From Hirudinaria manillensis (Eukaryota > Annelida > Clitellata > Hirudinida > Hirudinidae): 64,000 nucleotides of DNA. The notes below the pieces were generated by a model. It searched no databases and had not been told where the DNA came from. It saw only the letters and a program-made list of their open reading frames with translations. Where the stretch lies: assembly GCA_034509925.1 (NCBI GenBank), contig CM067530.1:7833501-7897500 (forward strand). Direction: 5' to 3'. This document shows positions 1 through 50,399 of this stretch, piece by piece (position 1 is the stretch's first letter; each line of letters starts with the position of its first letter). Position numbers and translations under genes: made by a program.

Positions 1-2442
1 ATTCCACAGTTACTGGCATCTGTATCGAGGATAAAAGGTAATCCGGGAATAGGATATGCCAGGATCGGTGCCGTTGTCATAGCTTCTTTCAGATTATTAA
101 ATGCTTTCTCACAGCTGCCGTTCCAGATAAATGGCTTGCCTTTTACAGTAAGCTCATGAAGGCTTTTTGCGATGTTTGAAAAGTTGGCAATAAATCGTCT
201 GTAATAGGTACAAAGTCCTAAGAAGCTTTGAAGTTCTTGGATATTTTTGGGTACGGGCCAATTTTTCACTACATCGACTTTATCTGGATCTGTACTAACA
301 CCTTCAGAAGACACGATATGGCCAAGGTATTTGACTTCTTTTTTAAAGAGTGAGCATTTCTTTGGACTCAGTTTCATGCCTGCCTCTCTAATCCTACTAA
401 ACACTTCTCGGAGGTTGTCTAAATGTTCTCCAAATGTTTTTCCGACAACAATTATGTCATCTAAATATACCAGGCATACTTTCCAGTTGAGTCCCCTTAG
501 TATGTGTTCCATTAATCTTTCAAACGTCGCGGGGGCATTGCATAGCCCGAACGGCATGACAGTGAATTGCCATAATCCTTCACCTGTCGAGAAGGCCGTT
601 TTTTCTCTGTCGTCAGGATGTAACTCCACCTGCCAGTAACCACTTTTGAGATCTAACGTGGAAAAAATTTTTGATCCCGAGAGAGTGTCTAAAGTATCAT
701 CGATTCTAGGTAAGGGGTAGCTGTCTTTAAGTGTCATTTCGTTCAGCTTTCTATAGTCGACACAAAAACGAAGTGATCCATCTTTCTTTTTAACGAGTAC
801 CACTGGTGAGCTCCAGGGGCTATTTGACGGTTCAATAACCCCTTGGTCTTGCATTTCTTTTATCATTTCCTTGGCGTTTGCTCTTGTAGCTAACGGAAGT
901 GGACGGGGGTTTTGTCGAATGGGTTTAGCACCGGCCGTATTTATTTGATGTTGCACGAGGTTAGTCCTACCCAAAGGGCTGTCTTGTTCAGCCATTATAT
1001 CCTGAAATTCGCTAAGCAGCTTTTCCGCTTGTTGATAATCTTCTTTTTGTAGGGTTTTGTTTAAATCTTTCAGGAGATTGTCCACCAATGGTTTAGGCAT
1101 GGCATCCCTTTTTATATGCTTATTTCCACTTCCATCTAATGTTAATATGTGTTCTAGGTTCCTGCAAAGTGCGATAGGTGTTCCTGCTTTGATCTGTTGT
1201 TCCTGGTCAGATAGATTCATTACCCTCAGTGGAACTCTGCCGGTGTTTAGCTTGACTAGTGCTCGTCCTATTAGTAGTCCTTGGCCAATGCCCGATTGAT
1301 CTTCGACTGCTCCTATACCAAATTTTGTGTGGTCGCCCTCTAGCCCGCCCCAAATTAAACTTTCCGACTGTGCTGGGATGGTCTCGTCCTGCAATACTTT
1401 TACAAATGTGTCTTTAATTTCTGTACCTCCGTAATTTAAAGGAATCTCCATCGTTCCTTGTTGAAGGGTACCGCCCTTCATGTCAATGGAAATTCCATAG
1501 CGTCGCATGAAATCCAATCCCAGTATACATTCATCTGTTATATTGGCTATCATAAATTCCTGTTCGAATGACTTGCCTCCTAAATCCACTGTAATAGTTG
1601 TGGTTCCTTGAACTGGCACTAATTCTCCGGTGGCTGTTTTTAGCTTGTAGTTGTTGGTCGTTACTTTACTGTTTCCTGCCAGCTTTGGTTGGACAATAGA
1701 TGTAGATGCCCCTGTGTCTATTACAAGATTATATTCCTTCCCTCCAATTTTTCCTTTAACCTCTAGTGATGATCCTTTTCCCAATGCCGTAACGTGAAAG
1801 ACGAGTGGGGCATTTCGAGTTTGCTGAAACGATCTTTGCCCCTTAAAATCAGAAGCTTCAGGTTTTTCTGATTTATAGGGCTCTCTCCAGTACTGCTGTT
1901 TTTTGGAGAAGGTCGTTCTACATTCTCGGGCTAAATGGCCTGGCTTGTTACACCTGAAGCACCTTGGTCTTCTATCTATTTCCTGGAATCTTAAGTTTCT
2001 TGGGGGCTTGCTGAAGTCATTGATTTGTCGGGCTATTTTTTTAATCATCTCTCTGTCTTTGTCATTATCTTTATCTTTCTCCTTGCCTCTGTTTTCCTGA
2101 GCTTCAATTTTCTTTACATTCAAGCTTTTTTGGATTGCGGCTCTTGCCGCTTCTATGGAGATTGCAAACGCCAATGCTTCATGGCTGGCCTTTATTCCAT
2201 GAATTTTTAGTGCCATTTTGGTTTCCGCATCCCTTATCCCATCAACGAAGGCGTCAGTTACAATGTTTTCAATGAAATCTGTTGACTGTCCTGGATGGGC
2301 TAAGTATGCGAGCCTTCTGACATCAGCCTCTAATTCTTGGAGTGATTCGCCCTGTTTTTGCGTACGATTTTTCAATTCGTTTTTATGTACTTCCAGCATG
2401 TGGCCATTCCCAAATCTTCTTTCCATTGCTTCTGCTATTTAC
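1..2442 (-). CDS. Gag C-terminus plus Pol (protease, RT), partial at window edge
   Basis: All conserved motifs from about 2442 down to position 1 share one frame (-1 relative to the Gag start). They are: the rest of the capsid; a CCHC knuckle (CFRCNKPGHLARECR) at 1918-1961; an aspartic-protease active site (VIDTGAST) with the catalytic D-T-G-A at 1707-1718 and a partner motif ILGLDFMRRYG near 1500-1530; and reverse transcriptase with the Y-L-D-D catalytic box at 456-467. The RNase H start (ILDTDASNCG) touches the left edge. Gag and Pol would be made as one polyprotein. I saw no stop in this frame in the parts I translated, but the frame has no obvious start of its own and depends on the break upstream. 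Confidence 0.8.
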
Positions 2443-3256
2443 AGTGGAGCATTGTTTGCAAAAGCTCGGCTGCCCTTCCTCGCAGTACCATTATCAGCTC
2501 TGTTGCTTTTTCCTCTTCGGTCCACTTGTTGCGTTCAGCGGCAGTTTCAAACTGATGTCTGAACACTGCCCATGGCCCTTGTCCGTCGAATAATGGTGGT
2601 CTTGTCGTTTTCTCTCTTCCATATGTCTCTGTTTTCGATTCATTGTATTTTTTAAACTTCTCTATTTCCATCCTCTGCTCTTCTTTTAGTGCATCTAATT
2701 CTGCTTTAACCTTTCTCAGGTCGGCCATCTCCTTGGATGATCTGAGGTTGGCTACGTCCGTTTTTACCTCTTCCCGCAGAGCATCCATGGATGTCTGGAA
2801 TTTGGCTGCATCAGTTTTTACCTCTTCCCGCAGAACATCCATGGATGTCTGGAATTTGGCTACGTCTGTTTTTACCTGCTCCTGTAAAACATCCATGGCT
2901 ACCTGGAAGTTGGCTATATCGGATTTCACATCTGACCGCAAAGTATCCATGCCGCAAATCAATTCTGACCGCAAAACATCTATGCCGCAAGTCATATCTG
3001 ACCGTAAAACATTATTGTCTGACCGCAAAGCATCCAGGGCCTTATTGTTGGCTTCTATAGCAGTCTGAAGGGCTTCCCATTGTTTTTCTTTTTGAGCCCC
3101 AAATTCATACTCCGACGGATCGTGATTATTTTCCAAAAGCCATTCCTCGAGCCGTCCTTGTAGTTCGGCTTTTAGGCCAGTTGCATCCAGGCCTCGATTC
3201 CTTAGTTCTCGTCTCAAATCGGGAACGCGCAAATCGTCCAGTATCTTAGGTCCCAT
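2435..3256 (-). pseudogene. Gag N-terminal part with SAP domain and coiled coil; broken
   Basis: A 273-codon frame begins 60 bases after the primer site. Residues ~8-40 form a SAP-type helix-extension-helix motif (LRVPDLRRELRNRG, then TGLKAELQGRL), a fold usually used for nucleic-acid binding. Residues ~65-190 are coiled coil made of near-repeats of about 19 residues (MDVLREEVKTDAAKFQTS and relatives), visible in DNA as ~57 bp units between 2755 and 2995. A capsid-like stretch follows (PLFDGQGPWAVFRHQFE). The frame ends at TAG in the middle of the capsid. The continuation (AEAMERRFGNGH) lies in the -1 frame, itself just behind a TAA, so the two frames are separated by overlapping stops. A small indel is the simplest explanation; a programmed shift is possible, but I see no classic slippery heptamer. 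Confidence 0.75.
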
Positions 3257-3316
3257 TTCTGTCGTTAAAACTCGCTGTTTTACCTCTAGTGAATCGATAT
3301 CCCTTTACGACGTTAA

Positions 3317-3626: not shown

Positions 3627-6600
3627 TCAATAAACATCTGAAGGCTGCACTTTGGTTCTTACCAGTGTCTGCCACCCCTGGCCTGAAAAGAATGAGCCAA
3701 AGTCAAGGCCACTGAGTGACTTGAGGATCGCACTGAGATTCAGTTCAGATACATTTTGAAGGATCACGTAAGAGAAACTTCTCTTGAGCAATTTTTTAAC
3801 TTTCTTAAACTTTCTCTTATACAAAGTCTGCTGCTTTTGAGGGGCATCTGCCGGGACCCTGAATTTTGAAATTTCGTTATGGATTTTAGGCCATAATTGT
3901 TTCAGGATTAAAATATGTAAACAGTTCCAAAATATTTTTCATCATATCATCGTTTCTAACAAACCGAGCTGCAAGGAAATGTGGTATTTGCTAATAAATG
4001 AATGTTTACAAGTCACGCTTACCATACCAAGATAACCAGCTTATTTTTGTCAGAATCGTGATAGAAGGCATATCTTCCTTCTCCAGCTTTCTGGGCTGCC
4101 ACGAGGTCTTTCACCAAGTCATCAAAAGAGGCTCCTTAAAAGTATCGAAAGAAATTTATTGATTAATAGCTAAATAAAAATAAAAACTTTATTTTGTATT
4201 CCTTATCAACCTGCGGCCCCGGATTTATCGACAACGAGAGTGTTTGCTGCTGTCCATTTGGTTGTTATGTATTTTCGTTTCCCTGAATTAACTTCATCGA
4301 TGGCAGTTTCGGTGCTTGGGTCCAAATTAGCCTGGATTAAATTACATATGTTTTGATAAATTTAATTAAATAAATTAAATTTTATTCAATTTTTAATTAA
4401 ATAAAAGTTTAATATTTTGTTGACAAACATTTGGATAAAATTTTGGATGAAGCGGTGAAACCAATTTAAGATGATTTAAAAATTTACTTTCAATCTTGCA
4501 ATTAAAATTTTTATTCAAACCGGCTCGTTATCTTCTGGTCCTTCATCGCTATCTTCACCAAAGACAATCTACATTAAAAATTGTTTAAATAAATTATTAT
4601 TTATTTCTAAACCATCACAGTTTATCCAAAATTGAACAAGTGAAACACCATGATACTGAATTAAAAACTACGAGGAGCGTTTCATAAATGATTGATGAAT
4701 AAACTTACTGGCACTAATGTGATTCATGACATGTTGCAATAAACGTAGTAATTTAAACTAAAATGGAAAATTAAAGTTTAAATTGAAGATCACCTGTTGT
4801 TTCCACTCGAATTTTGAAACCCAGCTGCTGAAGTCGAAGGAACTTGCTGACTTGAACAGCGCATCGAGGTTCAGGTCAGCAACTTTGCTGGTTATGACGT
4901 AGAAGAAACTTTTCTTTAGCAACTTCTTCAGTTTTTTAAGTTTTCGTTTGTACAAAACTTTCTGTGCTTCCGGTACACTGGCTGGTGTCCTAAACAATTT
5001 CAGATTTGCTTTTGAAATGCGCTAAGAAATGCTATCGGACGGGTAATCGTATGTTTAGAGCATATCTAATCATTTTCGGAGCGATAGGTTATCACAACTA
5101 TGGACAAATATGCTTTAGAAATGAATGAAATTATAGGTATAAGCACTATTAAACCGACCATACGACGAGAAGTAATTTTCCTTTGTCGTTGTAAAAAGCA
5201 TATCTGCCTTCACCAGATTTCTCTGCAGCTACTAATTCTTTCACGAGGTCGTCGAATTTGGCATCTTCAATAGAAAAGCATTTGCGTAATTTAAACTGAT
5301 AAACGAAATAGATTTTTTATTAATATTTACCTGGCGCTCCAGTTTTATCAACAACGAGTGTGTTTGCTGGAGTCCACTTAAGAGTCACATATTTTTTCGT
5401 GCCCTTTTTCACGTCTTCCACTACTGAATCAACTTTGACATCAAGCTGAGCCTAAGCCAATATTTAAAGAAATAACAAACAAAAAACATTATCTCTATTC
5501 TCCGCCGATAAAAGATTTTAAAAATATTTAACTTTTCAAATACATTCTGATTCAATATTTTTTTTTATGTAAGTCCTCTTAAGTTTTCTTCTTATGTAAA
5601 GTAAATTCTAATAAAAATATGTGTTAATATTGACAAGCATCTACGAGTGAGCACATCAAACAAATTAATAGAAACTCACGGGTTCATCATCATCGCCTTC
5701 GTCCTCTTCACCCTATAATAACAGTATACGATTAGTTAATATTTGCGACCAAATTCACTTTTCACGGAAATCAATAAATCAGATAAATTTTCATTTCAAA
5801 GATTCACGATGAATGCAAGCATAGTTAAGTACATATCATATAAATATTAGACAAATATACATATAATGTAATATTAATATATAATAAACTCACTCCAAAT
5901 TTCTTGACTTGTTTCAACAACCAGGAAGAAAAATCAAAGCTCTTCGATTTTTTCAAAAGTTTGGTGAGTTCCAATTCAGGAACACTTTCGGCGACAACGT
6001 AAGCGAAGTTCTTCTTCAGCAGCTTCTTTACTTTGACCAATTTCTTTTTGTACAACACTTTTTGTTTATCAGGTAGGGTCGATGGAGCCCTATGCGAAAG
6101 TGAGTGTAGAATATTATGGGTTAACTTTAATTTTATCTTTCGGGCTCAAATGTATCCATAAATAAGACAATCAAGTTACTGCCTTTATGTTTCACTACCT
6201 CTAAACCAGTCCGCACTTGTATAGCGCTTCTCCCCGATGATGCGTGGGGTTTACGACACGACACATTGTGGCGGTCGTCATTACGATGGTATGCAGGAAC
6301 GTCAAGGCCACATTTTTAATTAACATGATCTCACCATACGACGAGAAGCAAATTTCCATTGTCGTTATAGAAAGCATATCTTCCTTCACCAGCCTTTTCT
6401 GCATCAACCAGATCTTTTACCAGATCGTCGAACTTTGCATCTTGAGAAATATTTTCAGTACGAGATTTTGACAGAATTACAATATTAAAATGTTTTATGA
6501 TTATTAATTACTTGGAGCTCCAGTCTTATCGACGACAAGAGTGTTTGTAGGAGTCCATTTTAGAGTCACATATTTCTTTGTTCCTTTTTTCACATCTTCC

Positions 6601-9600
6601 ACAACGGGATCTACTTTTGGATCTAGTTCAGCCTTAATAACGCAAAGATCAATTTTAAAAATAATAATGTGTTTAATTGAAATTAAAATAAAACAATAAA
6701 TAGAGCCATGTTCAAAATGTAATGAGTAAATGATGAAATATTGGGACTGATTAAAAGTGCAATAATATCTCTAAGTATACTTCGACTAATATTAATACTT
6801 CGATTAACATTTAATATTTTTCTTACAGGTTCGTCATCATCTTCATCCTCATCTTCTTCTTCGGGCTTCTAAAATTTAAAGATTATTTGGTTGTTTACAA
6901 CTCAGTCCTAAGCTTTTTTAGAAGATAAAAATATAGAACTATATATTTCTTGTTATACATTAGAATCTATTAACTCTGAAAATAAACGAAATCAACTGAA
7001 ACATGAAAGAAATAGTTCTGAAACACAAACTCACCACTACTTTCTTCACCACTTTCGTAAACCACTTCACGAAGTCCAAAACTTTCACGGTTTTCTGAAG
7101 CTTTGGAAGATCCAAATCTTGGACTGACTGGGGAAACGCGTAAGTAAAGTCCTTTTTCAACAATTTCTTGACTTTAACGAGTTTCTTTTTGTAGAGCACT
7201 TTCTGCTTATCAGGAAGAGTCGATGGCGCCCTTTGTAATAATGAAATATTAAAGTATTATAATAAAAATAAATATTTTCTTGATACTTGTGCCTTTATCT
7301 GCCAATATAGTCTCTGCTAACCAAACGACGAGAAGCAAATTTCCATTGTCGTTGAAGAAGGCATATCTTCCTTCACCAGCCTTTTCTGCATCAACCAGAT
7401 CTTTAACCAGATCGTCGAACTTTGCATCTTGAGAAATATTTTCAATACGAAAATTTTACAGAATTACATTATTAAAATGTTTTATGATTATTAATTACTT
7501 GGAGCTCCAGTCTTATCGACGACAAGAGTGTTTGTAGGAGTCCATTTTAGAGTCACATATTTCTTTGTTCCTTTTTTCACATCTTCCACAACAGGGTCTA
7601 CTTTTGGATCTAGTTCAGCCTTAATAGGGAAAAGATCGTTTTAAAAATAATTATGTCTTTAATTGAATTAAAATAAACAATAAATAGAGCCATGTTCAAA
7701 ATGTAATGAGTAAATGATTAAATATTAAAAGTACAATAATATGTCTAAGTATACTTCGATTAACATTTAATATTTTTCCTTACAGGTTCGTCATCATCTT
7801 CATCCTCATCTTCTTCGGGTTTCTAAAATTTAAAGTTTATTCGGTTGTTTACAACTCAGTCCTAAGCTGTGTTTTTTTTTAGAAAATAAAACCATAGAAC
7901 TATATATTTCTTGTTATACATTAGAATCTATTAACTCTGAAAATAAATGAAATCAACTGAAGCATGAAACAAATAGTTCTGAAACACAAGCTCACCACTA
8001 CTTTCTTCACCACTTTCGTAAACCACTTCACGAAGTCAAAACGTTTCACGGTTTTCTGAAGCTTTGAAAGATCCAAATCTTGGACTGACTGGGGAACCGC
8101 GTAAGAAAAGTCCTTTTTCAACAATTTCTTGACTTTAACGAGTTTCTTTTTGTAAAGTACTTTCTGCTTATCAGGAAGAGTCGATGGCGCCCTATGTAAT
8201 AATGAAATATTAAAGTATAATTATAAATAAAATAAACTTTTATAGTACTTATGCCTTCATTTTAAACTCAAAATCGTGCAATTTTAAGAATTTAATTCCT
8301 GCTAACCAAACGACGAGAAGCAAATTTCCATTGTCGTTGAAGAAGGCATATCTTCCTTCACCAGCCTTTTCTGCATCAACCAGATCTTTCACCAGATCGT
8401 CGAACTTTGCATCTTGAGAAACATTTTCGATATGAGAATTAAGTTAATAAAATGTTTTATGAATAATTACTTGGGGCTCCAGTCTTATCAACAACAAGGG
8501 TATTTGTAGGAGTCCATTTTAGAGTCACATATTTCTTTGATCCTTTTTTCACATCTTCCACAAGGGGATCAACTTTTGGATCTAGTTCGGCCTTAATAAT
8601 GCAATGATCAATTTAAAAATAATAATGATTGAGATAAAATAAAATAAATTTAATGGGGCTATGTTGCAATGATGCAATGAATAAATGTAAATGTAAAGAC
8701 AAATACAGTTACGTCTGGCTACTATGCCACCCTCGCTATTATGCTACTTTTGGTCGGTCCCGACAAAATTCAATACAAAATAAATTTACTATGCCACCCC
8801 CAATCCTCGCTACTAGGCCACCATGGTCCTGACATTGTTTATCTAACCCATGAAGTTAAGGACATATTTCCAGTAGGGGGAAATAATTGAGAGTCATTTC
8901 CTTGTATTTTTAAGATTTTATCAGGTTAATACTTTGCCATGACTTGTTGGTGAGGGATGATTAAGGAAAGTAATGGAAAATTCCTTGGAATTTGATTGGT
9001 CTAATGGGCAAAGTTGCCTGGGAGTGTAAATAGGAATGAAAGTGAATGTTGAGATTTTATGTGAAAATTGCGAGTTGGAGTGAAGATCAGCAAATGTTAT
9101 CTCAGAAACGTAAGCGAACGTTTGGCTAGATAATTTCAAGAAGCGCCAAATCACGTTCAAGGCAGTGCAGGGTGAAGCTGAAGCTTTGGTCGCAAGTCTA
9201 GTGTGATGCAAGCGTGCGATCGACTAGACAACGAGATCCGCCGAAAGGAGATGCGTCAGCCAAAGATTGTGAGAGATGATCTGAGCTGATGGTTAACTTG
9301 AGAAAATAAAGCCGTTTTTATTTGATAAAATAAGGCCATTTTTACAAATCCTCGTTACTCTGCCACTCTCGCTACTATGCCACTTTTGCTCGGTCCCGAC
9401 GTGCGTCATAGCAGCGAGACTTGACTGTATAAATGTAAAATGCAGAGACAAATATCCAGATGAAATATTGGGCCTGGCCAAAAATACAACACGTCAACGA
9501 TTAATAAATATTAATTCAGCTTACAGGTTCGTCATCGTCTTCATCCTCATCCTCATCTGCTTCTTCGGGTTTCTAAAATTTAAAGATTAATAGGTTATTT

Positions 9601-12600
9601 ACAACTCAGTTCTAAGCTGTGGATTTTTTTCGAAAATAAAACCAAAGAACTAATTTTTATATATCTCTGTCGTATTTCTTGATTCTTTGTAAATTAAATT
9701 AACTCAAACAAAAAAATTAACTTAACTGAAACACAAACTCACTCCTGGTTTCTTGAACAGCTTCGAAAACCACTTCACGAAGTCAAAAGCTTTCACGGTT
9801 TTCTGAAGCTTTGGAAGATCCAAATCTTGGACTGACTGTGGAACCACATAAGAAAAGTCCTTTTTCAACAACTTCTTGACTTTAACGAGTTTCTTTTTGT
9901 ACAGCACTTTCTGCTTATCAGGAAGAGTCGATGGCGCCCTTTATAATAATGAAATATTAAAGTATTATAATAAAAATAAATATTTTCTTGATACTTGTGC
10001 CTTTATGTGCCAATCTGGTCGCTGCTAACCAAACGACGAGAAGCAAATTTCCATTGTCGTTGAAGAAGGCATATCTTCCTTCGCCTGCCTTTTCTGCATC
10101 AACCAGATCTTTAACCAGATCGTCGAACTTTGCATCTTGAGAAACATTTTCAATACGAGATTTTGACAGAATTACATTATTAAAATGTTTTATGATTATT
10201 AATTACTTGGAGCTCCAGTCTTATCGACGACAAGAGTGTTTGTAGGAGTCCATTTTAGAGTCACATATTTCTTTGTTCCTTTTTTCACATCTTCCACAAC
10301 AGGGTCTACTTTTGGATCTAGATCAGCCTTAACAACGCAAAGATCAATTTTAAAATAAAAATTCTTAAAATAAAACAAAATAAATGGAACTGCGTTCAAG
10401 ATGCAGTGAGCAATGCAGAGATAAATATCCATGTGAAATATTAGAACTGATAAAAAAAATGCATGCAATTTCTAAGTATACTTGGATTAACTTCTAATAT
10501 TTTTCCTTACAGGTTCGTCATCATCTTCATCCTCATCTTCTTCTTCGGGTTTCTAAAATTTAAGCATTATTCGTTTGTTTACAACTCAGTCTTAAGCTTT
10601 GTTTTTTTAAGAATATAAAACAATAGAAATATATATTTCTTGTTTTTTAGAAAATAAAATCATAGAACTAATTCTTATAGATTTCTTGTTGTAAATTAGA
10701 CTATTAACTCAGAGAATAAATTAAATTAAATGAAGCATGAAACAAATAGTTCTGAAACACAAGCTCACCAATACTTTCTTCACCACTTTCGTAAACCACT
10801 TCACGAAGTCAAAAACTTTCACGGTTTTCTGAAGCTTTGGAAGATCCAAATCTTGGACTGACTGGGGAACCGCGTAAGAAAAGTCCTTTTTCAACAATTT
10901 CTTGACTTTAACGAGTTTCTTTTTGTAAAGTACTTTCTGCTTATCAGGAAGAGTTGATGGGGCCCTATGTAATAATGAAATATTAAAGTATAATGAAAAA
11001 AATAAACGTTTATAGTGGTACTTGTGCCTTCATTTTAAACTCAAAATCGAGCAATTTTGAGAATTTAGTTCATGCTAACCAAACGACGAGAAGCAAATTT
11101 CCATTATCGTTATAGAAAGCATATCTTCCTTCACCAGCCTTTTCTGCATCAACCAGATCTTTCACCAGATCGTCGAACTTTGCATCTTGAGAAACATTTT
11201 CGATATGAGAATTACGTTAATAAAATGTTTTATGATTATTAATTACTTGGAGCTCCAGTCTTATCGACAACAAGGGTATTTGTAGGAGTCCATTTTAGAG
11301 TCACATATTTCTTTGTTCCTTTTTTCACATCTTCCACAAGGGGATCAACTTTTGGATCTAGTTCAGCCTTAATAATATCAATATCAGCCTTAATAATGAT
11401 CAATTTAAAAATAATAATGATTGAGATTATAAAATAAAATTCATGGGGCTATAATGGATATAAAATTTTAGAAATAATAATCGGAGGAGAGAATGTGTGT
11501 AATATATGACGGTAGAGATTATCTAAAAGGTGCATGAGATATTTATTTATGACAAAACTAACGGGTTCATCATCATCTTCATCTTCCTCTTCCTCCTCAG
11601 GTTTCTAAAGATATTAAAAGAAAGGCTTATATATCCATAATAAGTTGTACAACGAAATCAAATAACATATATCCATAATAGTTTAAAACAATTTCATCGA
11701 TGGAATCACTTACTTCTGGTTTCTTTCCTTGTTTCGACAAAAATGTTGAATAGTCAAAGTCCTTCACGGTTTTTAGAAGCTTTGGAAGGTCCAATTCTGG
11801 GACAGATTGTGGGGCAACGTACGAGAAGTTCTTTTTCAGCAATTTCTTTACTTTAACAAGTTTCTTCTTGTACAGAACTTTCTGCTTATCAGGTAGGGTC
11901 AATGGTGCCCTGAATGGCGTTCATATTGCAGTTTCTTAAATATGCTATCGCAGCAAAATAAATCATTTACAATGTCATGGGTACTCACCAAACAACGAGC
12001 AATAGTTTTCCATTATCGTTATAGAAAGCATATCTTCCTTCGCCTGCCTTTTCTGCATCAATCAGATCTTTCACCAGATCATCGAACTTTGCACCTGAGA
12101 AAGCATAACGATACTCAATAATAATATGAGTTATACCTTGAAATGTTTAGCGACCAAAAGTGAAGTGGGGAATGACCATAACTTGAACAAAGTTCAGAGC
12201 GTCTTACCTGGAGCTCCAGTCTTATCAACGACCAGTGTATTGGTTGGGGTCCACTTCAGTGTGACGTACTTTTTAGTTCCCTTTTTCACGTCTTCTACCA
12301 CAGTGTCAACATTTGGTTCCAATTGAGCCTATAAATTTTACATGGATTTAATATGTGTAAACTAATTCTTCATTTTAATGCCAGAATCATTAATATGAGA
12401 ACATCTATTCATTATTTCGGGAACACTTACGGGTTCATCGTCATCAACTTCATCGTCTTCCTCCGTGGGCTTTGGTAATGGCTTTAAAGAAGTAATGAAT
12501 GCAAGTCACAAGATAATTTATTTGGTATGTAAAAAAATTACATTTACGTGTATGGATGATTTAATAGCTTAGACAATACGTCTAATTAGGATTCACGATC

Positions 12601-15600
12601 AAAATCACTCACTTCTGGTTTCTTTCCTTGTTTCGACAAAAATGTCGGGTAATCAAAATCCTTGACGGTTTTCAGAAGCTTTGGAAGATCCAATTCTGGT
12701 ACGGATTGTGGGGCAACGTACGAGAAGTTCTTTTTCAGCAATTTCTTTACTTTAACAAGTTTCTTCTTATACAGAACTTTCTGCTTGTCAGGTAGGGTCA
12801 ATGGTGCCCTGAATGGCGTTCATATTGCAGTTTCTTAAATATGCTTTCGCAGCAAAATAAATTATTTACAATGTCATGGGTACTCACCAAACGACGAGCA
12901 ATAGTTTTCCGTTGTCGTTGTAGAAGGCATATCTTCCTTCGCCTGCCTTTTCTGCATCGACCAGATCTTTGACCAGATCGTCGAACTTTGCAGCTTGAAA
13001 AACATCAATATTATTCATTAAGGATTATGCATGGGGAAATGAAGCTTAGGATCGACTAGTTTGCTTAATTCTACGCTGATCTTTTTGGACTAGAATTGAA
13101 TAAGTTTCGGGAGTTATGGGACCAATAAATGACAGTTACCTTTTTTTTTCTTATGAACAAGATAAGAACTGGCATTTCATAGTCGTAAGGATAAGTTCAA
13201 CGCTACTCACTTGGAGCTCCAGTCTTATCGACGACGAGGGTGTTTGTTGGGGTCCACTTCAGTGTAACATATTTTTTAGTGCCCTTTTTCACGTCTTCGA
13301 CAACAGTGTCGACGTTTGGTTCTAACTGAGCCTATTAGATTTAGACAGGTTTAGTAATTATTTATTTCTTAAATTGGAGGCCAACATCAATAACATATCC
13401 ACTCCTATTTGTTTTAGTCTCACTTACAGGTTCGTCGTCATCAACATCCTCGTCTTCATCCACGGGCTTCTGTAATAAATTTAAATTCAACTAGTGCATA
13501 TCATAAGAGAAACGCAAAATTTCCAGTTATAAAAATGGACGATATTTAGATATATCCAGAATATATTCTATCGCCATCGACAGCATCACTTACTTCTGGT
13601 TTCTTTCCTTGTTTCGACAAAAATGTCGGGTAATCAAATTCCTTGACGGCTTTCAGAAGCTTTGGAAGATCCAATTCTTGGGTCGACTGAGGGAGCACGT
13701 ACGAGAAGTTCTTTTTAAGTAATTTCTTGACTTTAACAAGTTTCTTTTTGTACAGCACTTTCTGCTTGTCAGATAAGGTTGATGGTGCCCTAAATGACGA
13801 TGAGTTTATATTTAATTTATGGAATAGTGGTTTCTTGCAAAGTCATTCATTACTACCAAACAACGAGCAGCAGTTTTCCATTGTCGTTGAAGAAGGCGTA
13901 TCTTCCTTCGCCAGTCTTTTCTGCATCGACCAGATCTTTCACCAGATCATCAAACTTCGCACCTTAGTAAACATCAATATTTTGTCACTATATTCAATAT
14001 GGATTTTACCCGGAGATATGAAAATATCCTTATCATCTAGGATTAGAATTCATGGAACTAGACAGAGTTAAGAGCATAATACTTGCAGGGATAAAGTTGG
14101 GTTTTTTTTCTAAGAAATCTGAATTGGCGTTTCAAATGCACGTGGATAAAATTCAAGCGACATACTTGGAGCTCCAGTCTTGTCGACGACGAGGGTGTTT
14201 GTTGGGGTCCATTTCAGTGTGACATACTTTTTAGTACCCTTTTTGACGTCTTCAACTACGTTGTCGACGCTTGGTTCTAACTGAGCCTATAATTTTTAGA
14301 CAAGTTTAAACTTTATATCTTGTAGAATATTTCTTAATTTATAGGCTACTATTATTAACATCGGCATGCCTATTTTATTTTAGTTAAACTTACAGGTTCG
14401 TCGTCATCAACTTCATCGTCTTCTTCCGCAGGTTTCTGAAATGAATTCAGAGTAAAAAGAATACTGATCATAAAAAATTGTAAATTTTCGAACTTTGATC
14501 CTATGAATCGATATTTCCATCGACAGAATCACTTACTTCTGGTGTCTTTCCTTGTTTCGACAAAAATGTGGGGTAATCAAAATCCTTCGCAGTTTTTTGA
14601 AGTTTTGGAAGATCTAATTCCTGAGCCGAACGAGGAACAACGTACGAGAAGTTCTTTTTGAGAAGTTTCTTGACTTTGACGAGTTTTTTCTTGTACAGCA
14701 CTTTTTGTTTATCAGTTAGGGTTGATGGTGCCCTATATGACGAGGAGTTCATATTGCATTTTATCAATCGTGAGTTCTATCAAATTTATTCATGCGCACA
14801 GCAAAAAGATCGTACCACACGACTAGCAGCAATTTTCCATTGTCGTTGTAGAAGGCATATCTTCCTTCACCAGCCTTTTCTGCATCAACCAGATCTTTCA
14901 CCAGATCATCGAATTTCGCATCTTTGAAAATAAAATTAATATTTCTCGTAATATTAATATTTACTTAGTGGTTGTATCAAGAGATATGAAACGCGGACTG
15001 GGCTAATCTGGGCCTACGAAACTTTGGATGTAGCAGTGTTAGACAAGGATGCGTTGCTAAGTTTGTATTAAGTACCAAAAGTGATTTGGCGATTTATCCT
15101 TACTTGGACAAAGTCATACGTGTCTTACTTGGAGCTCCAGTCTTATCAACAACCAGGGTATTGGTTGGGGTCCACTTGAGTGTGACGTACTTTTTAGTAC
15201 CCTTTTTCACGTCTTCAACAACGGTATCGACGCTTGGCTCCAACTGAGCCTGATTTTAATGAAATGTTTAACTTAAAATTCTTTATTGAATTTAACTTTC
15301 ATTGAATTATGGAGTTTTGCTCGGTAATTATTTCCATTATTTGTTTAACATATACTTTGGTGCATTTGGTTTGTCATATTTTTGGTTATACTTTAAAAGT
15401 AAAACATATTTTCCACGTTTTACGCTTACCGGTTCGTCATCATCTTCGTCGCTCAGCTCTTCGGGTACCTTCATAAATTAGAATTTATGCTTATATTCCT
15501 TTATTTATATTCAAGAGTTATTTTTACTAATTATTCTATGTTCTTAGTTAGTCTGATCTATTCACCTCAACTTTTTCTGGTACTACAGGGGTTTCTTTGA

Positions 15601-18600
15601 CAGGCTCCTGGACTTGTCCACTGCCAGCTGGAAGAAGTTTGCTGACACCTTCTGGAGTTACTTCAGTGACGCTTTTTACGGTAACTTCATTCCATGCTGG
15701 TACTTTCAATGAGGTTTTTAGGCCTTTTAATTTCAATAGGTATTTCGTAACCAATGTTTTGTCGGCTGTGCTGGGGGTCCTATTAAAAACACATTTATTG
15801 ATCAATTATCAGCATAATTATATTAATCAACCTCTAAAAGAATTAACTTACCATAACAGTAAAAGAAGTTTATTTTGGGTTGTGCCATCTTTTAACACTG
15901 GCAGAAAGTAAAAGACTACTCTCAGTTGACCAGAACCTTCAAACTGTTTCAAATACGACGCCAACGAAGCAAAATCGGCACCTGTGGAAGGTAACATCAA
16001 GTTCGGTATTTAAGATTTTCCTGAGTTTTACAATTTTTTCTGTGCTTACTAAATAAGATTTAAATTACACTCCTTGTTTTTTTTAATGTCTTTTAAATAA
16101 TTATATTTTTTTTAAATAATTCCTCAAACTATTAATTTGATGAGGTAATTTTGTGAATGCATAGTTATGGCCTAAAATATATTTAAATGTCAACATTCTT
16201 CGCTATATATAACTAGAAAGAAAGAAAGAAAAATGAAACTTTGATCAACTTACTGAGATCACCCACTTTATCAACCACCACGCTGTTGAAATCGTCAGAA
16301 AATTTCAGGACAACGTATCTTTTCGATCCCTGACTGACTTCATTGACGCTGGTTTGCACACTTGTATCTACTTTCACCACCTTTGATGAAAGTGAAATTT
16401 TATAAAATCACAAGTTATTTGCAGCTAAGATTTACTGCAACATTTGCAGTGCAACCATATTATTTAATTGACTGTATCTAAATAATGGTGCTCCTCGTCG
16501 TGTAATGGTTAAGACACTGCCTCTTAAGATGGCGTCACGGATTGGAACACCATGTTATTGGAGCACCCTCCTATACATTCAGCTATGTAAGTTTATTTTT
16601 TATTATTGGATTTAAATGTTGTACCTCATCTGTGGTTGGTGTTGTTGTCGTCGTCGTCACGAGTTGTCCCGAATTGGCTGGAAGAAGTTTGTTGACACTT
16701 TCGGGGGTTACTTCCGTGACGCTTTTTACCGTAACTTCATTCCATACTGGTACTTTCAATGCGGTTTTTAGGCCTTTTAATTTCAACAAGTATTTCGTAA
16801 CCAACGTTTTGTCGGCTGTGCTGGGGGTCCTATTAGAAACACATGTATTAATCAAATAACAGCGTAGTTATATTAATCAATTCGAAAAGAATTAACTTAC
16901 CATAACAGTAGGAGAAGTTTATTTTGGGTTGCGCCATCTTTTAGCACTGGCACGAAGTAAAAGACTACTCTCAGTTGACCAGAACCTTCATACTGCTTCA
17001 AATATAGTGCCAACGAAGCAAAATCGGCACCTGTGGAAGATAACATCAAGTTCGGTATTTAAGATTTGCCTGAGTTTTACAATTTTTTCTGTGCTTACTA
17101 AATAAGATTGAAATTACACTCCTTGTTGTATTTTTAAACGACTTTTAAATAATTATAATTTTTTTAAATAATTCCTCAAACTATTAATTTGATGAGGTAA
17201 TTTTGTGAATGCATAGTTATGGCCTAAAATATATTTAAATGTCAACATTCTTCGCTATATATAACTAGAAAGAAAGAAAGAAAAATGAAACTTTGATCAA
17301 CTTACTGAGATCACCCACTTTATCAACCACCACGCTGTTGAAATCGTCAGAAAATTTCAGGACAACGTATCTTTTCGATCCCTGACTGACTTCATTGACG
17401 CTGGTTTGCACACTTGTATCTACTTTCACCACCTTTGATGAAAGTGAAATTTTGTCACAAGTTATTTGCAGACAAGCTAAGTTTTACTGCAACATTTGCA
17501 GTGCAACTGTATTATTTAATTGACTGTATCTAAATAATTGTGCTTCCTCGTGTAATGGTTAAGACACTGCCTCTTAAGATGGCGTCATGCATCGGAATAC
17601 CCTGGAGCACCCGCCTGCTCATTCAGATATGTAAAGAATTTTTTTAAATATTGGATTTAAATGTTGTACCTCATCTGTGGTCGTTGTCGTTGTCGTCGTC
17701 GTCACGATTTGTCCTGTATTCGCTGGAAGAAGTTTGTTGATGCCTTCAGGAGTGACTTCGGTTGTGGTTTTGACTGTTACTTCATCCCATATCGGTACAT
17801 TTAAGGAAGTCGTTAGACTCTTTAGTTTCGTCTGATACTTTGATACTAAGGTCTTGTCAGCGGTGCCAGGGGCCCTTTTAAGGACATTTAGAAGGTAGGC
17901 AAGATGGTATCCGCCATTCGACCATAGAGATAAACTTCTTAAATTACTTACCAGAAGATAAGCAGTACTTTGTTTCCTACGACTCCATCTTTAACGACAG
18001 GCACAAAGTAGATGACGATTCTCACTTCACCTGCTGCTTCGTACTTTTTCAGGTCTGCAGCCAGGTCGGCGAAGGTTGCACCTGCAAAATGTTTTATTTT
18101 TATGAGAGCATCAAACTGAATTAATTGTATTTTATATTATATTAATATTTATTATATTATTGAGCATTTGAAATTATTTTTATCCTTATATCTTAACATT
18201 TGCTGAGATCAGCCACTTTATCAATCAACAACGCTAGTGAAAATCATCAGAAAATTTCAGAAAAACGTACCTTATTATTACATTATTAAAGTTAGACAAA
18301 ACATAATCTGCCAACAATAGCCCCGGCCAAATCAGCCGCCATAAAATTATGGTAATTACAAGGTTTACATGGTTTACAAGTTAATTTTGAAGCATTTTAA
18401 ACCCACTGAGATCGCCCACTTTATCGAGGACGATGCTTGAAAAGTCATCGGAAAATTTAAAGATGACGTATCTCTTTGATCCGAGACTGACTTCTTGGAT
18501 GCTTGGCTTCAGTTGTACATTCACCGTTACTACCTTGAAAAATATATTGATTACAGTTGTTAATTACTGTTTTCCTTCCCAGAATTCGGACAAAAAAGAC

Positions 18601-19504
18601 TAGAATAATACTTCAGTAGTTTCTGACTCTCCGTACTCCGAGCTTGATATAATCCTATTGTATCCCTCTGCAGCGCTGTTGTGTAAGTACGTAAGATTGA
18701 AGTCGGATTGCAAATCAGATATCAGAGAAAGTACAATATCCTTGCTAAAAAGTTTTTCCAGTTCATCGACTACGGCCGAATATTTTTGGCCAACTTCTTC
18801 ATTGTTTCCCGTGGCTACCCTGAGGATATAAATATAAATGTAAAAGGATTTGTAACTCTTCAGATGTTACAATAAGAATATCTAAGGTTAAATTACATAT
18901 ACAAGACATCGTTCGTTATCAAAAGATGATTTCCTTAAAGTAGTTTTATTATTTTAACGTTAGAGTGTCCTCACCAAACTAAAACATAAAGTTCCTTTCC
19001 ACTTTTCCCGGCATTGGAATATGCTCCAAGTAAATCTTCTTTTGATGCCAATAAATCGGTTGTCAGACTGTTGAAATCTGTTGCATATGTTTTCTTCGTA
19101 TAATTTATGTTTTTAAACGTATCATAATCATTTAAAAATATTTTTTCTGTTTTTACCTCCAGCAGAAACTTTAACCAAAGAAAATGTGCTAAGGTCCTGA
19201 GATGGCTTGAATACGGCATAACTTTTTGCGCCTTGGGCTACGTCCTGATAAGCTTTCGAGGCATCGGCATTGAATGTTAAGGTCGCACTGGTCTGAATAA
19301 CAAAATGCAGAATTTCAAAAATACTCTAATTTAGATTGTTGATATGTGGCCACTGAAACTCACCAATTTGCAAAATTGGAGGATAAGGAATATTGTTCCC
19401 GACCAGAACGAAAAAGAGGCTGTGTGACCCTAGTTAAATAATGTAATTAATTAAATTTAATCAAAAGTCCTGTAGCCCAACTAGAGTAATAAGTAACTAA
19501 CCAT
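3627..19504 (-). CDS. Predicted secreted tandem ADF-H (cofilin-like) 15-domain protein
   Basis: About 58 exons on the minus strand encode ~2,360 residues: a signal-peptide-like start, then 15 ADF/cofilin-homology domains. The fold call rests on the order of conserved blocks in each repeat: KKYVTLKWTPTNTLVVDKTG, then FDDLVKDL, then GRYAFYND..LLLVVWAP, then KQKVLYKKKLVKVKKLL. These match the cofilin blocks (IVV-K-TG, F-L, RYA-YD, L-FI-W-PD, K-KM-YASSK-ALK). ADF-H domains bind actin inside cells; a secreted array has no known role that I am aware of, so function is open. Each domain is three exons in phases 0-1, 1-2 and 2-0. Domains 5-15 are joined by separate acidic phase 0-0 linker exons. The ATG at 19502-19504 is followed directly by a donor and a TATA box lies 41 bp upstream. 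At the 3' end, reading through exon 3663-3858 gives TGA at 3627, but an intact donor at the conserved place suggests more exons to the left. Confidence 0.8.
3663..4331 (-). other. ADF-H domain 15 (last visible)
   Basis: Exons 4211-4331 (121 nt), 4023-4134 (112 nt, two extra codons: HDSDKNKLVILVW) and 3663-3858 (196 nt if the donor GTAAGA at 3662 is used). The start of the third exon (VPADAPQKQQTLYKRKFKK) is very cofilin-like, although the K-x-K is replaced. If unspliced, the frame adds 11 codons after the donor and stops at TGA 3627-3629. Confidence 0.8.
4794..5451 (-). other. ADF-H domain 14
   Basis: Exons 5331-5451, 5159-5264 and 4794-4989, standard sizes and phases. The K-x-K is partly lost (PEAQKVLYKRKLKKLKKLL). 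Linker exon after it: 4521-4568 (IVFGEDSDEGPEDNEP). Confidence 0.85.
5894..6632 (-). other. ADF-H domain 13
   Basis: Exons 6512-6632, 6335-6440 and 5894-6089, standard sizes and phases. Third exon: PDKQKVLYKKKLVKVKKLL, then NFAYVVAESVPELELTKLL. Linker exon after it: 5680-5712, the shortest at 11 codons (GEEDEGDDDEP). Confidence 0.85.
7035..7619 (-). other. ADF-H domain 12
   Basis: Exons 7499-7619, 7322-7427 and 7035-7230, standard sizes and phases. K-x-K present. Tail KWFTKVVKKVV. Linker exon after it: 6827-6868 (KPEEEDEDEDDDEP). Confidence 0.85.
7996..8591 (-). other. ADF-H domain 11
   Basis: Exons 8471-8591, 8307-8412 and 7996-8191, standard sizes and phases. Introns are nearly identical to those of domain 12, 961 bp away. 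Linker exon after it: 7784-7822 (KPEEDEDEDDDEP). Confidence 0.85.
8706..9427. mobile_element. pogo/Tigger-like DNA transposon, 722 bp, non-autonomous
   Basis: The ends are imperfect inverted repeats starting CAGT: left CAGTTACGTCTGGCTACTAT, right (reverse complement) CAGTCAAGTCTCGCTGCTAT. The similarity continues through GTCGGGACCGA further in. A TA dinucleotide flanks each side (8704-8705, 9428-9429), as expected for Tc1/mariner-pogo insertions. There is no intact transposase. A short plus-strand frame near 9206-9289 (ending KEMRQPKIVRDDLS) resembles the C-terminal tail of pogo-type transposases and may be a remnant. The element sits in the intron between ADF-H domains 10 and 11; the matching introns of neighbouring repeats lack it. 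Confidence 0.75.
9743..10327 (-). other. ADF-H domain 10
   Basis: Exons 10207-10327, 10030-10135 and 9743-9938, standard sizes and phases. The tail is KWFSKLFKKPG. Linker exon after it: 9525-9572, 16 codons (KPEEADEDEDEDDDEP). The following intron carries a 722 bp DNA transposon. Confidence 0.85.
10769..11367 (-). other. ADF-H domain 9
   Basis: Exons 11247-11367, 11080-11185 and 10769-10964, standard sizes and phases. The domain end changes type here: instead of FLSKQGKKPE it reads KWFTKVVKKVL, shared with domains 11 and 12. Linker exon after it: 10511-10552 (KPEEEDEDEDDDEP). Confidence 0.85.
11714..12328 (-). other. ADF-H domain 8
   Basis: Exons 12208-12328, 11989-12094 and 11714-11909, standard sizes and phases. 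The third exon and its flanking intron are close to those of domain 7, including the upstream stretch ending CATTCAGGGCACC. Linker exon after it: 11563-11604 (KPEEEEEDEDDDEP). Confidence 0.85.
12613..13331 (-). other. ADF-H domain 7
   Basis: Exons 13211-13331, 12888-12993 and 12613-12808, standard sizes and phases. K-x-K present (PDKQKVLY). Linker exon after it: 12431-12481, the longest at 17 codons (PLPKPTEEDDEVDDDEP); its start is set by the AG at 12482-12483. Confidence 0.85.
13594..14286 (-). other. ADF-H domain 6
   Basis: Exons 14166-14286, 13857-13962 and 13594-13789, standard sizes and phases. Blocks as in domain 5 with SDKQKVLYKKKL and FFNDNGKLLLVVW. Linker exon after it: 13428-13469 (KPVDEDEDVDDDEP). 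Confidence 0.85.
14537..15249 (-). other. ADF-H domain 5
   Basis: Exons 15129-15249 (121 nt), 14816-14921 (106 nt) and 14537-14732 (196 nt), the standard sizes for domains 5-14. Third-exon block: TDKQKVLYKKKLVKVKKLL. The K-x-K before V-L-Y lines up with the cofilin K-x-K-M that contacts actin. Linker exon after it: 14394-14435 (KPAEEDDEVDDDEP). Confidence 0.85.
15566..16380 (-). other. ADF-H domain 4
   Basis: Exons 16254-16380, 15852-15981 and 15566-15779. It is a near twin of domain 3 through VTEVTPEG, but its tail is different: VQEPVKETPVVPEKVE replaces the Thr run. From here on, linkers are Pro/Glu/Lys-rich or acidic. The first acidic linker exon (15430-15468, VPEELSDEDDDEP) follows. Confidence 0.8.
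16487..16567 (+). repeat. tRNA-like element in intron, copy 1
   Basis: An 81 nt segment is closed by a perfect 8 bp stem (GGTGCTCC / GGAGCACC). Inside is a perfect 4 bp D-arm (GTGT..ACAC) with loop AATGGTTAAG, and a weaker second arm around TCTTAAGAT. The T-arm is poor, so this looks like a tRNA-derived SINE relic rather than a working tRNA. Confidence 0.35.
16625..17432 (-). other. ADF-H domain 3
   Basis: Exons 17306-17432, 16901-17030 and 16625-16829. Blocks: GSKRYVVLKFSDDFNSVVVD, FASLALYL, LLLLLWTPSTADKTLVTKY. It ends in a Thr-rich linker (LVTTTTTTPTTDE). Exons and introns are nearly the same as those of domain 4, about 1,050 bp away, which marks a recent tandem duplication. Confidence 0.8.
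17540..17611 (+). repeat. tRNA-like element in intron, copy 2
   Basis: The same core (GTGTAATGGTTAAGACAC, then TGCCTCTTAAGATGGCGTCA) lies at the matching place in the duplicated intron, about 1,050 bp away. Here the closing stem has a mismatch (GTGCTTCC), so copy 1 is the better preserved. It arrived by the duplication, not by a second insertion. Confidence 0.35.
17670..18533 (-). other. ADF-H domain 2
   Basis: Exons 18407-18533, 17952-18081 and 17670-17874. Blocks: GSKRYVIFKFSDDFSSIVLD, FADLAADL, GEVRIVIYF and VLLIFWAPGTADKTLVSKY. The last is closest to the coactosin type (TDKTLV after the tryptophan strand). The domain ends in a run of eight or nine threonines before the next intron. The intron between its first two exons holds a decayed copy of an exon. 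Confidence 0.75.
18202..18272 (-). pseudogene. Relic first exon of an ADF-H domain
   Basis: Lying in the intron between the first two exons of domain 2, this segment matches the first exons of domains 3 and 4 base for base over long stretches (for example CTGAGATCA.CCACTTTATCAA and CATCAGAAAATTTCAG), but has small indels and ends inside the exon. It looks like the remnant of a lost array unit or an abandoned duplicate exon. Confidence 0.75.
18612..19292 (-). other. ADF-H domain 1 (divergent)
   Basis: Exons 19157-19292, 18975-19077 and 18612-18819 (phases 0-1, 1-2, 2-0) follow the same three-exon plan as the other domains. Readable blocks are GAKSYAVFKPSQDLSTFSLV, FNSLTTDL and GKELYVLVW. The third exon (EEVGQKYSAVVDELEKLF) keeps the length and heptad pattern of the long helix but lacks the lysine cluster, so actin contacts are not conserved. 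It ends in a Ser/Glu/Thr tail (SSSEYGESETTE). Confidence 0.6.
19364..19504 (-). other. Signal-peptide exons of the ADF-H array protein
   Basis: Exon 1 contributes only the start codon (19502-19504, donor GTTAGT). Exon 2 (19364-19429, 22 codons) adds GHTASFSFWSGTIFLILQFC and then KL. The start is followed by a hydrophobic core (FSFWSGTIFLILQF) and then a small-residue region at the exon junction (KLTSA), consistent with cleavage near TSA. This is a prediction by eye; the n-region lacks a basic residue, so a signal-predictor check matters. A single-codon first exon is unusual but the splice signals on both sides are good. Confidence 0.6.
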
Positions 19505-19544: not shown

Positions 19545-19553
19545 GCTTTATAT
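19545..19553 (-). promoter_or_regulatory. TATA box of the ADF-H array gene
   Basis: The minus strand reads TATATAAAG, about 41 bases upstream of the proposed ATG at 19504. That leaves room for a start site near 19520 and a very short leader. A strong TATA box is common in genes with high tissue-specific expression. The start site itself is inferred. Confidence 0.6.
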
Positions 19554-19559
19554 ACACTT

Positions 19560-30665: not shown

Positions 30666-30683
30666 TAATAACATCATTCAGAG

Positions 30684-31613
30684 GTTGCCGTTACTAGTGG
30701 AGTTCCCCAGGGGAGTGTTCTTGGGCCAACATTATTTTTACTCTACATAAACGACCTTCCTGGCTTATTCAAGAACTCAGACACAATTTGTAAGCTCTTC
30801 GCTGATGACATAAAGCTTTACAATAGTTCTCCTCTCCAGCTGCAGAGATCTCTTGATACGATAGTGGAGTGGAGTGAGAGATGGCAGCTACAACTCGCTC
30901 CCGACAAATGTCAGATTCTCTCATTAATTGGCTGCAAAAGATCTTTTCATCCAAATGAATATTGTATTCACAACCACATACTGTCAAGAGTTAACTTGAT
31001 TCGAGATCTAGGAATACTCATAGATTCTTCGCTCCGACTTGACAAACACATAGATAACATCACCAGAAAGGCAGCTACAATATCCAAACTGATTCTAGCA
31101 TCATTTTCCTCACGTGACCATGACATCCTCATAAGGGCATTTTGTACCTTTGTTAGGCCAATACTCGAGTATGGCTCTCCTGTATGGAACCCACACAAAA
31201 AACTTCTCATCGATAGGCTTGAACAGATCCAAAAAAGGTTCACCAAGGCCATTCCCACACTGGCCAAATATCCTTATCTGCTGAGACTAAAGATTCTTAA
31301 ATTGCCCACCCTAGAAAAACGAAGACTACTGGCCGATCTCACCATGTGTTTTAAATTACTAAAAGGCCTTACTAATAGCAAAATCTCCACTACTCTCAAC
31401 AGATCAACATACAATAGGACCAGAGGCCACAACTACAAACTCAGGACAAACAAATTCCGTTGTAATACTTCCAAATACTTTTTCTCCAATCGAATTGTCA
31501 AATCCTGGAACACCCTGCCAGCCCATGTCGTTAACTCCTCTACCACGTCCCGCTTCAATGCTGAGATCCACAAATTGAACCTTAACCAATACCTTAAATA
31601 TCATGAACCCTAA
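30684..31613 (+). pseudogene. LINE ORF2 C-terminal part: reverse transcriptase palm/thumb and tail
   Basis: About 309 codons open to a TAA at 31611-31613. Motifs: SGVPQGSVLGPTLFLLYIND, then the catalytic F-A-D-D at 30798-30809, then a thumb region with LAPDKCQ, DLGILIDSSL and RPILEYGSPVW. These are typical of non-LTR reverse transcriptases of the Jockey/CR1 groups. The endonuclease and the N-terminal half of RT are missing, so it cannot move by itself. The remaining frame is intact, which suggests a fairly recent insertion. Confidence 0.88.
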
Positions 31614-47305: not shown

Positions 47306-49138
47306 TCTTTCATTTCTCGTCCGTCATTCAGAAGATTTATTAGGAGGTAGGCCTTTAAAATCGAATACTCAGCCATCACTCAACTGATTACCTAAATTCG
47401 TCTCCTCTAAACTTTAAAACAACGTTCTGAATTTTGGAATTGATTGTGCAGGCTCATTCTGTAGGTTTTCGTGAAAATCAGCCTCGAAAATCTAATTTCA
47501 ATTAATTTTGAAGTCAAAACATTGAAAAATAATTTTTAAAACAAAAAAAAAACTATAAAATCATTACTTTGACGAGATCCTTTTCTTCACCGGAGGTCAG
47601 AAAATCAAAAGCGGGTCATTTAAAAAGAAATTATCAGAATCGAAAGTTTCAAATTTCCTACGAGCGCCGTGGAATCACAAACGACTCCTTTTAAGCGAGC
47701 CGCGCATCGAGTGCTGCCGAAGAAATTATGAAACAAAAATGCCGGAAAAAAGTTTATCTACTTTTGCTTTGCTTCAATCTTTCAAATTAATAAGGTAAAG
47801 CTGGAATCTTTAAGGAGAAGTCCATTGGAACGTGGCAATTATTCGGAAAGAGACTGTCCTTGTTATATTTTTCCCACCTTCTTAGCGGATTTCCCTCTGG
47901 AAATCATTTTTCTCACGTGCAACTCACCTGATGAACTGCAACGAAAAGTGCATCTCCGAGTGTTATTCCGTTGAAGCTGATTGTATTTTTGAGAAGGCAC
48001 GTTAAGCGGGTTTTTTGGATAATTGAGTTTAAATTTTAAAAAATATACACATGTATATTTATATGTAATTATATATAATTTAATAATATATTAGTTAAAA
48101 TTATTTGTTGATAAAAAATGTTCAAAAGAATTTATTAAAGTCCGGGAATCATTTTGTTCTTTATCGAATAAATTGATGAAAATATTGATTTAAATTTAAA
48201 CTTTTCCTCGTCATAACGGATCCGGAATTTGTTGAAGTGTTGCTTAAAGAATTATGATTTATTTCATCATAAATTTAAAATAATTCAACGTAATTATCAA
48301 ATAATTCATCGTAAATATAACATGAAAAGTACGTTTGGAAATCGTTTGAATTTAGAGGTAATAATTTCAAATTGAACCAATAAAATATAAAATATTCAAA
48401 TTACATTATTATTATAATTTTATTATTTATTATATTTATTATTTTATTATATTATTATAAATTAAATTAAGTTATTATAGTTGAAAATTTAATTATTATA
48501 ATATCTGGGTGCATGGAATGGCAAAGCATTTAAAATATGGGGAGGTTTTCCAGCACGGGAAAGTTTATTTCATAGTTTCACTGAAGCCAAGAAGGCTTTT
48601 ATGATCGCAACGAGCACTAATTGTCCAGTAATCTGAGCAATTTCGTAACAATATGTCGTTTTAAGATTATTTTAGTTCATGCAAAATATTTCAAAATAAT
48701 TTCCTTCTCGGCATTTTTTTTTTCTGAGTCTTTTAAAATTATTTCTCGATCGATTTTCTGGTTTAAAAAAATGAAAATCTCTTCTAAGAATACTTTTTCT
48801 TCCTTCCTTCTGTTTCATTCATTCTGTTTATCAAAATCGAAATTTTTCAGACTTACATTGTTGCTGATAAATTTGAATTTATAAATTATCAACAATTTAA
48901 TCGATAATATTTTAATGAATGTTATATTAATATTTTGATGGTTATAATAATAATAACAACAATAATAATAATAATAATAATTTAATGTCATAAAGGTGGA
49001 AAACCGGAAGTTGATGGAGTCCTTCAAATTGAATGAAATCGAATCAACCTTGGACGACTGACCTCATATTGGCCTCTTTAAACCTGCATATGAACTCACC
49101 CTGTTGAGTCTCTCCATCATCTTCATTCATTCACTCCG
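47306..49138. other. Upstream region of the receptor gene
   Basis: Probably contains the receptor's untranslated leader and promoter. AT-rich, no other gene seen. A short AAT-type run is at 48945-48980. Confidence 0.5.
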
Positions 49139-49144
49139 TCAATC

Positions 49145-50340: not shown

Positions 50341-50399
50341 TCGTTCACTCCATGAATAGGTCAATGATCCCACCAGGATATCTTTCGTTGTATATATCA

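Follow-up and report, generated by a model that had tools for sequence, protein, structure and literature searches.

In the sections of one review considered here, ADF-H proteins fall into classes with one or two domains that act on the actin cytoskeleton, and the term "tandem ADF-H" denotes the two domains of twinfilin (PMC5297645). The locus described here lies in the leech Hirudinaria manillensis, in a window of 64,000 nucleotides (contig CM067530.1, positions 7,833,501 to 7,897,500 of the forward strand). Like twinfilin as presented in those sections (PMC5297645), the gene in the window encodes more than one ADF-H domain per chain. Twinfilin has two domains, whereas this gene (M1) and three paralogues (M2, M3 and M4) have 15, 3, 4 and 4, together with a leader. 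The relationship to the ADF/cofilins, represented by actophorin and by leech cofilins encoded on contigs C2, C4 and C7, is seen in a common match to the Pfam family PF00241, and the cofilin genes on C7 and C4 share both introns of the repeated unit. M1 differs from these proteins in having 15 domains in the model instead of one, which places it outside the single-domain ADF/cofilin class, and in its leader exon. Within the units, the residues K105 and M99 of the actin site are lost, the F-loop segment of the type 3 units is shortened, and the SGV start is absent.

The initial annotation of the window had stated that no protein with such an array was described. Searches of the open-access literature left this statement uncontradicted: no protein with three, four, five or multiple ADF-H domains and no ADF-H repeat was found there, and such a protein could possibly have been described elsewhere. 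The name "ADF-H domain-containing protein" does occur, in 17 papers, and by title some of these concern secretions: nematode excretory-secretory products, the wasp venom sac and shark skin. Inventories of this kind have thus already included proteins named after the ADF-H domain. Among the matches listed in the same literature there was no paper on a leech cofilin by title. A word search of main texts found neither "cofilin" nor "actin" in PMC7191736 and PMC10087013, and none of "cofilin," "actin-binding" and "depolymerizing" in PMC2996935. The leech multi-ADF-H gene family, its likely secretion and the shared introns go beyond the initial annotation.

Gene Model of M1

The gene M1 occupies positions 3627–19504 on the minus strand and consists of 58 coding exons with 2357 codons and 15 ADF-H units. 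It forms one open frame from the ATG at 19504 to the TGA at 3629–3627, without a stop in the 58 joined exons. The 57 introns range from 58 to 933 nucleotides; GT-AG ends were a requirement in building the model, so their presence in 57 of 57 introns is not independent evidence. Each unit contains exons A, B and C starting in phases 0, 1 and 2, and the pattern is repeated in all 15 units, which bears out the fifteen three-exon units of the initial annotation. Two elements go beyond that picture. Eleven units (U4–U14) have a fourth exon, D, which is acidic, and two leader exons are situated ahead of U1.

A TATA-like box (TATATAAA, 19547–19554, minus strand) is located upstream of the ATG, and similar boxes were recognized by eye before M2 and M3. 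Exon S1 (19502–19504) is the start codon alone. Exon S2 (19364–19429) encodes a hydrophobic leader, a putative signal peptide, that reads MGHTASFSFWSGTIFLILQFCKL together with S1. All units follow on the same minus strand. U1 (18612–19292) is of type 1. Type 2 comprises U2 (17670–18533) and U3 (16625–17432), both with a Thr-rich linker, as well as U4 (15430–16380), which carries the acidic exon D4 (15468–15430). The remaining units are of type 3: U5 (14394–15249, with D5 at 14435–14394), U6 (13428–14286, D6 at 13469–13428), U7 (12431–13331, D7 at 12481–12431), U8 (11563–12328, D8 at 11604–11563), U9 (10511–11367, D9 at 10552–10511), U10 (9525–10327, D10 at 9572–9525), U11 (7784–8591, D11 at 7822–7784), U12 (6827–7619, D12 at 6868–6827), U13 (5680–6632, D13 at 5712–5680), U14 (4521–5451, D14 at 4568–4521) and the last unit, U15 (3628–4331), which is without an acidic exon. 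The intron between A2 and B2 contains a further, decayed A exon copy (18197–18270, minus strand), recognized by eye.

The last exon, C15, contains a possible donor, GTAAGA, after position 3663, close to the splice point of the other C exons. Because of this donor-like site the 3′ end of M1 may continue, and a scan for a terminal exon gave no convincing candidate. Just past the 3′ end, an open frame at 2435–3304 on the minus strand has the look of a gag gene of a retroelement, and a terminal exon of M1 may have been displaced by it. An insert of ~0.72 kb is found at 8706–9427 in the intron between D10 and A11. Its ends are similar and in opposite orientation (CAGTTACGTCTGGCTAC and CAGTCAAGTCTCGCTGC), and it is perhaps a small DNA transposon; an inverted-repeat search of this long intron yielded one weak pair, other than the insert ends.

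The ratio Ka/Ks between units U5–U14 is 0.03–0.41 in the 37 of 45 pairs for which Ks could be computed. In the remaining 8 pairs, each of which involves U14, Ks is saturated. U3 and U4 show a milder Ka/Ks of ~0.37. By these ratios, U5–U14 are diverging under purifying selection. Introns are 84–97% identical between U9 and U11, between U10 and U12 and between U11 and U12, and this identity indicates that some M1 units are recent copies.

The Units Match the ADF-H Family

When the 15 units of M1 and the 11 units of the three paralogues were compared with Pfam, 25 of the 26 matched PF00241 at E ≤ 1e-4, with a best value of 1.9e-15, and one unit failed this threshold. As single units, U6 and U12 gave Pfam E values of 2.7e-10 and 1.3e-9. 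A profile of the 26 units had its best match in the Protein Data Bank with actophorin (E = 7.8e-21) and also found many other ADF-H proteins; twinfilin-1 was a weak match (E = 5.6e-5). The 26 units match 14 Pfam families at E ≤ 1, and a gelsolin family is not one of them. The proposal that the array is built of ADF-H domains is thus upheld, and by sequence profile the units are members of the ADF-H superfamily.

An exon-by-exon search of the genome (148.43 Mb, 23 contigs) with PF00241 listed 15 places, none of them within the window, probably because single unit exons are too short and too divergent.

Introns Are Shared with Leech Cofilin Genes

The positions of introns were compared between the array units and the cofilin genes on C2, C4 and C7, which are among the PF00241 places in the genome. 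In the C7 and C4 genes an acceptor lies immediately ahead of codon 2, from which we infer a first exon of ATG only. Both genes have a phase 1 intron just ahead of the block ADYKDF or ATYDDF and a phase 2 intron within the tryptophan codon. The array units contain these same two introns, before the block and in the tryptophan codon, at the same places and in the same phases. For the cofilin gene on C2, the intron in the tryptophan codon is the only shared one, and there is no intron after its ATG. On the evidence of the shared introns, the units descend from an ADF/cofilin gene. The array would then have grown as the body of a cofilin gene was copied in tandem.

Paralogues and Relatives

Protein searches of the genome, combined with exon profiles over 164 kb of contig C5 (5 kb of which is N), revealed four multi-ADF-H genes on this one contig, M1–M4, a count that is a lower bound as further members may exist in the genome. 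M2 (C5:7827.5–7824.9k for the units) has 3 units, M3 (C5:7815.1–7811.9k) has 4 and M4 (C5:9519.2–9516.2k) has 4. All three are on the same strand as M1 and have the same phases, and all three are represented by assembled unit domains rather than full coding sequences. Unit 1 of M4 requires a GC donor. For M2, a short basic exon at C5:7824557, KGKGHGKKVKGYLKV, is a candidate for the terminal one.

In a tree of 30 rows, four cofilins are set apart from the units with a support of 100/100. U1 groups with the first unit of M2, U2–U4 with the second and U5–U15 with the third, each with 100/99, and M3 and M4 pair unit by unit with a support of 95/97 to 100/100. Support is weak for the deeper branching order of the unit types. 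U1–U4 and U13–U15 are well diverged from the remaining M1 units. M2 has a single unit of each type, and the counterparts in M1 number 1 for type 1, 3 for type 2 and 11 for type 3. Because of these groupings, M1 looks like an M2-like three-unit gene in which the second unit has become three and the third eleven.

Four database proteins (P0001–P0004) are 71–86% identical to exon C stretches of type 3, M2 unit 1, M3 unit 1 and U1. Of 2207 candidates in a search with the unit alignment, 2 reached E ≤ 1e-3, and in a search with an exon C alignment of 19 sequences 2 of 233 reached E ≤ 0.01. The four short relatives may come from other species or be further copies. When the first 1428 of the 2357 residues of M1 were used for a homologue search, none of the 7999 candidates scored reached E ≤ 1e-3. 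This result is weak negative evidence, since the database seems to hold intron-bearing genes only as exon-sized pieces, and the four relatives are such pieces.

The Actin Site of Cofilin

The 26 units were aligned with five cofilins, namely the three from the leech, actophorin and yeast cofilin. In yeast cofilin, the residues considered here, among them Arg-80, Met-99 and Lys-105, contact actin. The position of Lys-105 is basic in all five cofilins and in none of the 26 units, which have Ala, Phe, Leu, Val or Tyr instead. All five cofilins likewise have Met-99, and none of the 26 units does. A basic residue at position 80 is present in 5 of 5 cofilins but only 3 of 26 units, and Asp, Glu or Asn at position 106 in 5 of 5 compared with 4 of 26. 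The segment that contains the F-loop, up to the tryptophan, spans 23–25 residues in the five cofilins and 15–17 in the 12 type 3 units; it has 16 residues in U1, 21 in unit 1 of M2, 19 in unit 1 of both M3 and M4, and 23 in the other ten units. Judged by these actin-site residues, the units lie outside the ADF/cofilin class.

Of the 26 units, 17 still have a basic residue at yeast site 98 and 21 have one at site 109, so another kind of actin contact is possible. The alignment is one of cofilins, with coactosin, GMF, drebrin and twinfilin outside it, and the units could possibly contact actin in a manner other than that of cofilin.

Leader, Composition and Charge

The four gene models begin alike: the ATG is the whole of the first coding exon, a hydrophobic leader exon comes next, and unit 1 follows in phase 0; for M2–M4 this was read by eye. 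The leader of M1 was given above, and those of M2, M3 and M4 read MGPTTSVGLKLSWLLLLLQIFKL, MGLLTGLSIGILLVCFNV and MGKVINLRSAIAIFLLCTNL. Their maximum hydropathy over 12 residues is 1.78–2.49. The lowest value, 1.78, belongs to the leader of M1, and a stretch elsewhere in M1 scores higher, at 2.03. The position and character of the leader exon suggest a putative signal peptide and a protein that leaves the cytosol.

M1 contains one methionine, at the start, and one cysteine, in the leader, and the following 2334 residues are without either. The 22 units of M1, M2 and M3 (3153 residues) contain no methionine and no cysteine. By comparison, the three leech cofilins (442 residues) have 17 methionines, 3 of which are assumed or actual start codons, and 9 cysteines. 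Binomial figures for this absence presuppose independent residues, an assumption that copied units violate. M4 departs from the pattern, with 11 methionines and 4 cysteines.

Lysine accounts for 14.7% of M1. The cores of U5–U14 have a net charge of +9 to +11 and their linkers of −7 to −11, so that basic domains alternate with acidic linkers. This pattern does not extend to the whole array: U1 is at −7, the cores of U2–U4 are at +1 to +4, the linkers of U2 and U3 are at −2, and U15 is at +7 and has no acidic linker. With 26 residues removed, M1 has an overall pI of 7.2 and a mass of 261 kDa. There are only seven N-glycosylation sequons.

Possible Function of M1

The initial annotation had offered two readings, a multivalent actin-binding protein or a repurposed structural protein. 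The sequence favors the second, because Lys-105 and Met-99 are lost in 26 of 26 units and position 80 is basic in only 3, and the leader suggests an exit from the cytosol. We give about an even chance that the product of M1 is a secreted, repurposed structural or matrix protein of ~261 kDa, whose ADF/cofilin domains would no longer bind actin in the manner of cofilin. The leader would be cleaved and the protein exported from the cell. There, the basic U5–U14 beads and their acidic linkers would pair within and between chains, and this pairing would let the protein self-associate as a gel, a coat, a glue or a material like that of a cocoon. A chain free of methionine and cysteine would suit an oxidizing or cross-linking setting. 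Counting against this reading are the lack of cysteine for disulfides, the small number of N-glycosylation sequons, the modest hydropathy of the M1 leader, the limited reach of the charge pattern, the milder Ka/Ks of U3 and U4, the methionines and cysteines of M4 and the basic residues kept at sites 98 and 109. More tentatively, the sequence can be read in a fuller form as an extracellular, sulfur-free, charge-alternating chain of fifteen ADF-H beads that would be joined by salt bridges to form cocoon material, a glue or a coat and would have no role in actin biology. If this were true, the protein would represent a further, extracellular class of ADF-H protein.

Plasma gelsolin is a secreted protein with tandem domains of a related fold that scavenges actin. 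A comparable multivalent scavenger in saliva or body fluid, capturing actin from damaged cells of the host or of the leech itself, would account for the leader exon, the ADF-H identity and the occurrence in a leech genome, and the basic residues at sites 98 and 109 would be in keeping with it. The loss of Lys-105 and Met-99 from every unit, with a basic residue at position 80 in 3 of 26, makes this function unlikely. In addition, "cofilin," "actin," "gelsolin" and "ADF" are absent as whole words from the main text, as distinct from the tables, of a study of Hirudo saliva (PMC7191736).

It is also rather unlikely that M1 is a secreted binder of another polyanion, such as a glycosaminoglycan, nucleic acid or lipid, acting through the lysine-rich last helix in, for example, anticoagulation or immunity. 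The type 3 units do contain a lysine-rich stretch (KVLYKKKLVKVKKLLKK), and their cores have a pI of 9.5–9.7. However, the acidic linkers almost cancel the bead charge of U5–U14, unit 1 is acidic, and the lysine content falls from 15.7% to 8–10% in the units of M2–M4.

An intracellular protein that binds or bundles actin multivalently, with the leader either mis-assigned or serving as an N-terminal anchor after the Met-Gly start, appears improbable. The ADF-H classes treated in the sections of the review considered here do act on the actin cytoskeleton (PMC5297645). In the units, however, key actin-site residues are gone, and so are the methionines and cysteines in those of M1–M3. The start of M1, MGHTAS, is compatible with a myristoylation pattern. 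By eye, M3 and M4 are without this pattern, so myristoylation was rejected as a common reason for the Met-Gly start, and the feature common to the four models is the hydrophobic leader.

That M1 is not one gene but several short separate ones, an array in decay or an artifact of the assembly would be in line with the relic A exon inside the array and the unsettled 3′ end of M1, but is very improbable given the compatible phases without a stop over 58 joined exons, the low Ka/Ks and the divergence of U1–U4 and U13–U15.

If the proteins with 3–15 domains are secreted and key actin-site residues are gone, as in the preferred reading of M1 as a repurposed extracellular protein, then the ADF-H fold is exportable and reusable. 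The unit numbers of 3, 4, 4 and 15, together with the introns, make it possible to trace how a housekeeping gene became one for a repeat protein. The bead and linker design of U5–U14 (about +10 against about −9) is that of a simple natural polyampholyte and could interest work on protein materials.

Other Features of the Window and Genome

On the minus strand of the window, a single-frame gene for a rhodopsin-type receptor is situated at 46010–47323 (7tm_1, E = 9.1e-58), which is dopamine D1-like by eye. An open frame with three C2H2 zinc fingers, EGR-like by eye, is present at 58135–59565 on the same strand, and the open frame at 59605–60210 may be its first exon. The plus strand contains a 1268-codon open frame at 53835–57641 that reads like the polyprotein of an LTR retrotransposon, a reverse-transcriptase fragment at 30672–31613 (RVT_1, E = 1e-16) and, at 49062–50405, a short tandem repeat of more than 1 kb that is open in three frames and has HSFI repeats. 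A single match to the hirudin family is found in the genome, at C4:12249547–12249618, with 33.9 bits (cut-off 25). It covers one exon and contains one stop within the match, and a leader-like open frame is present upstream of this exon.
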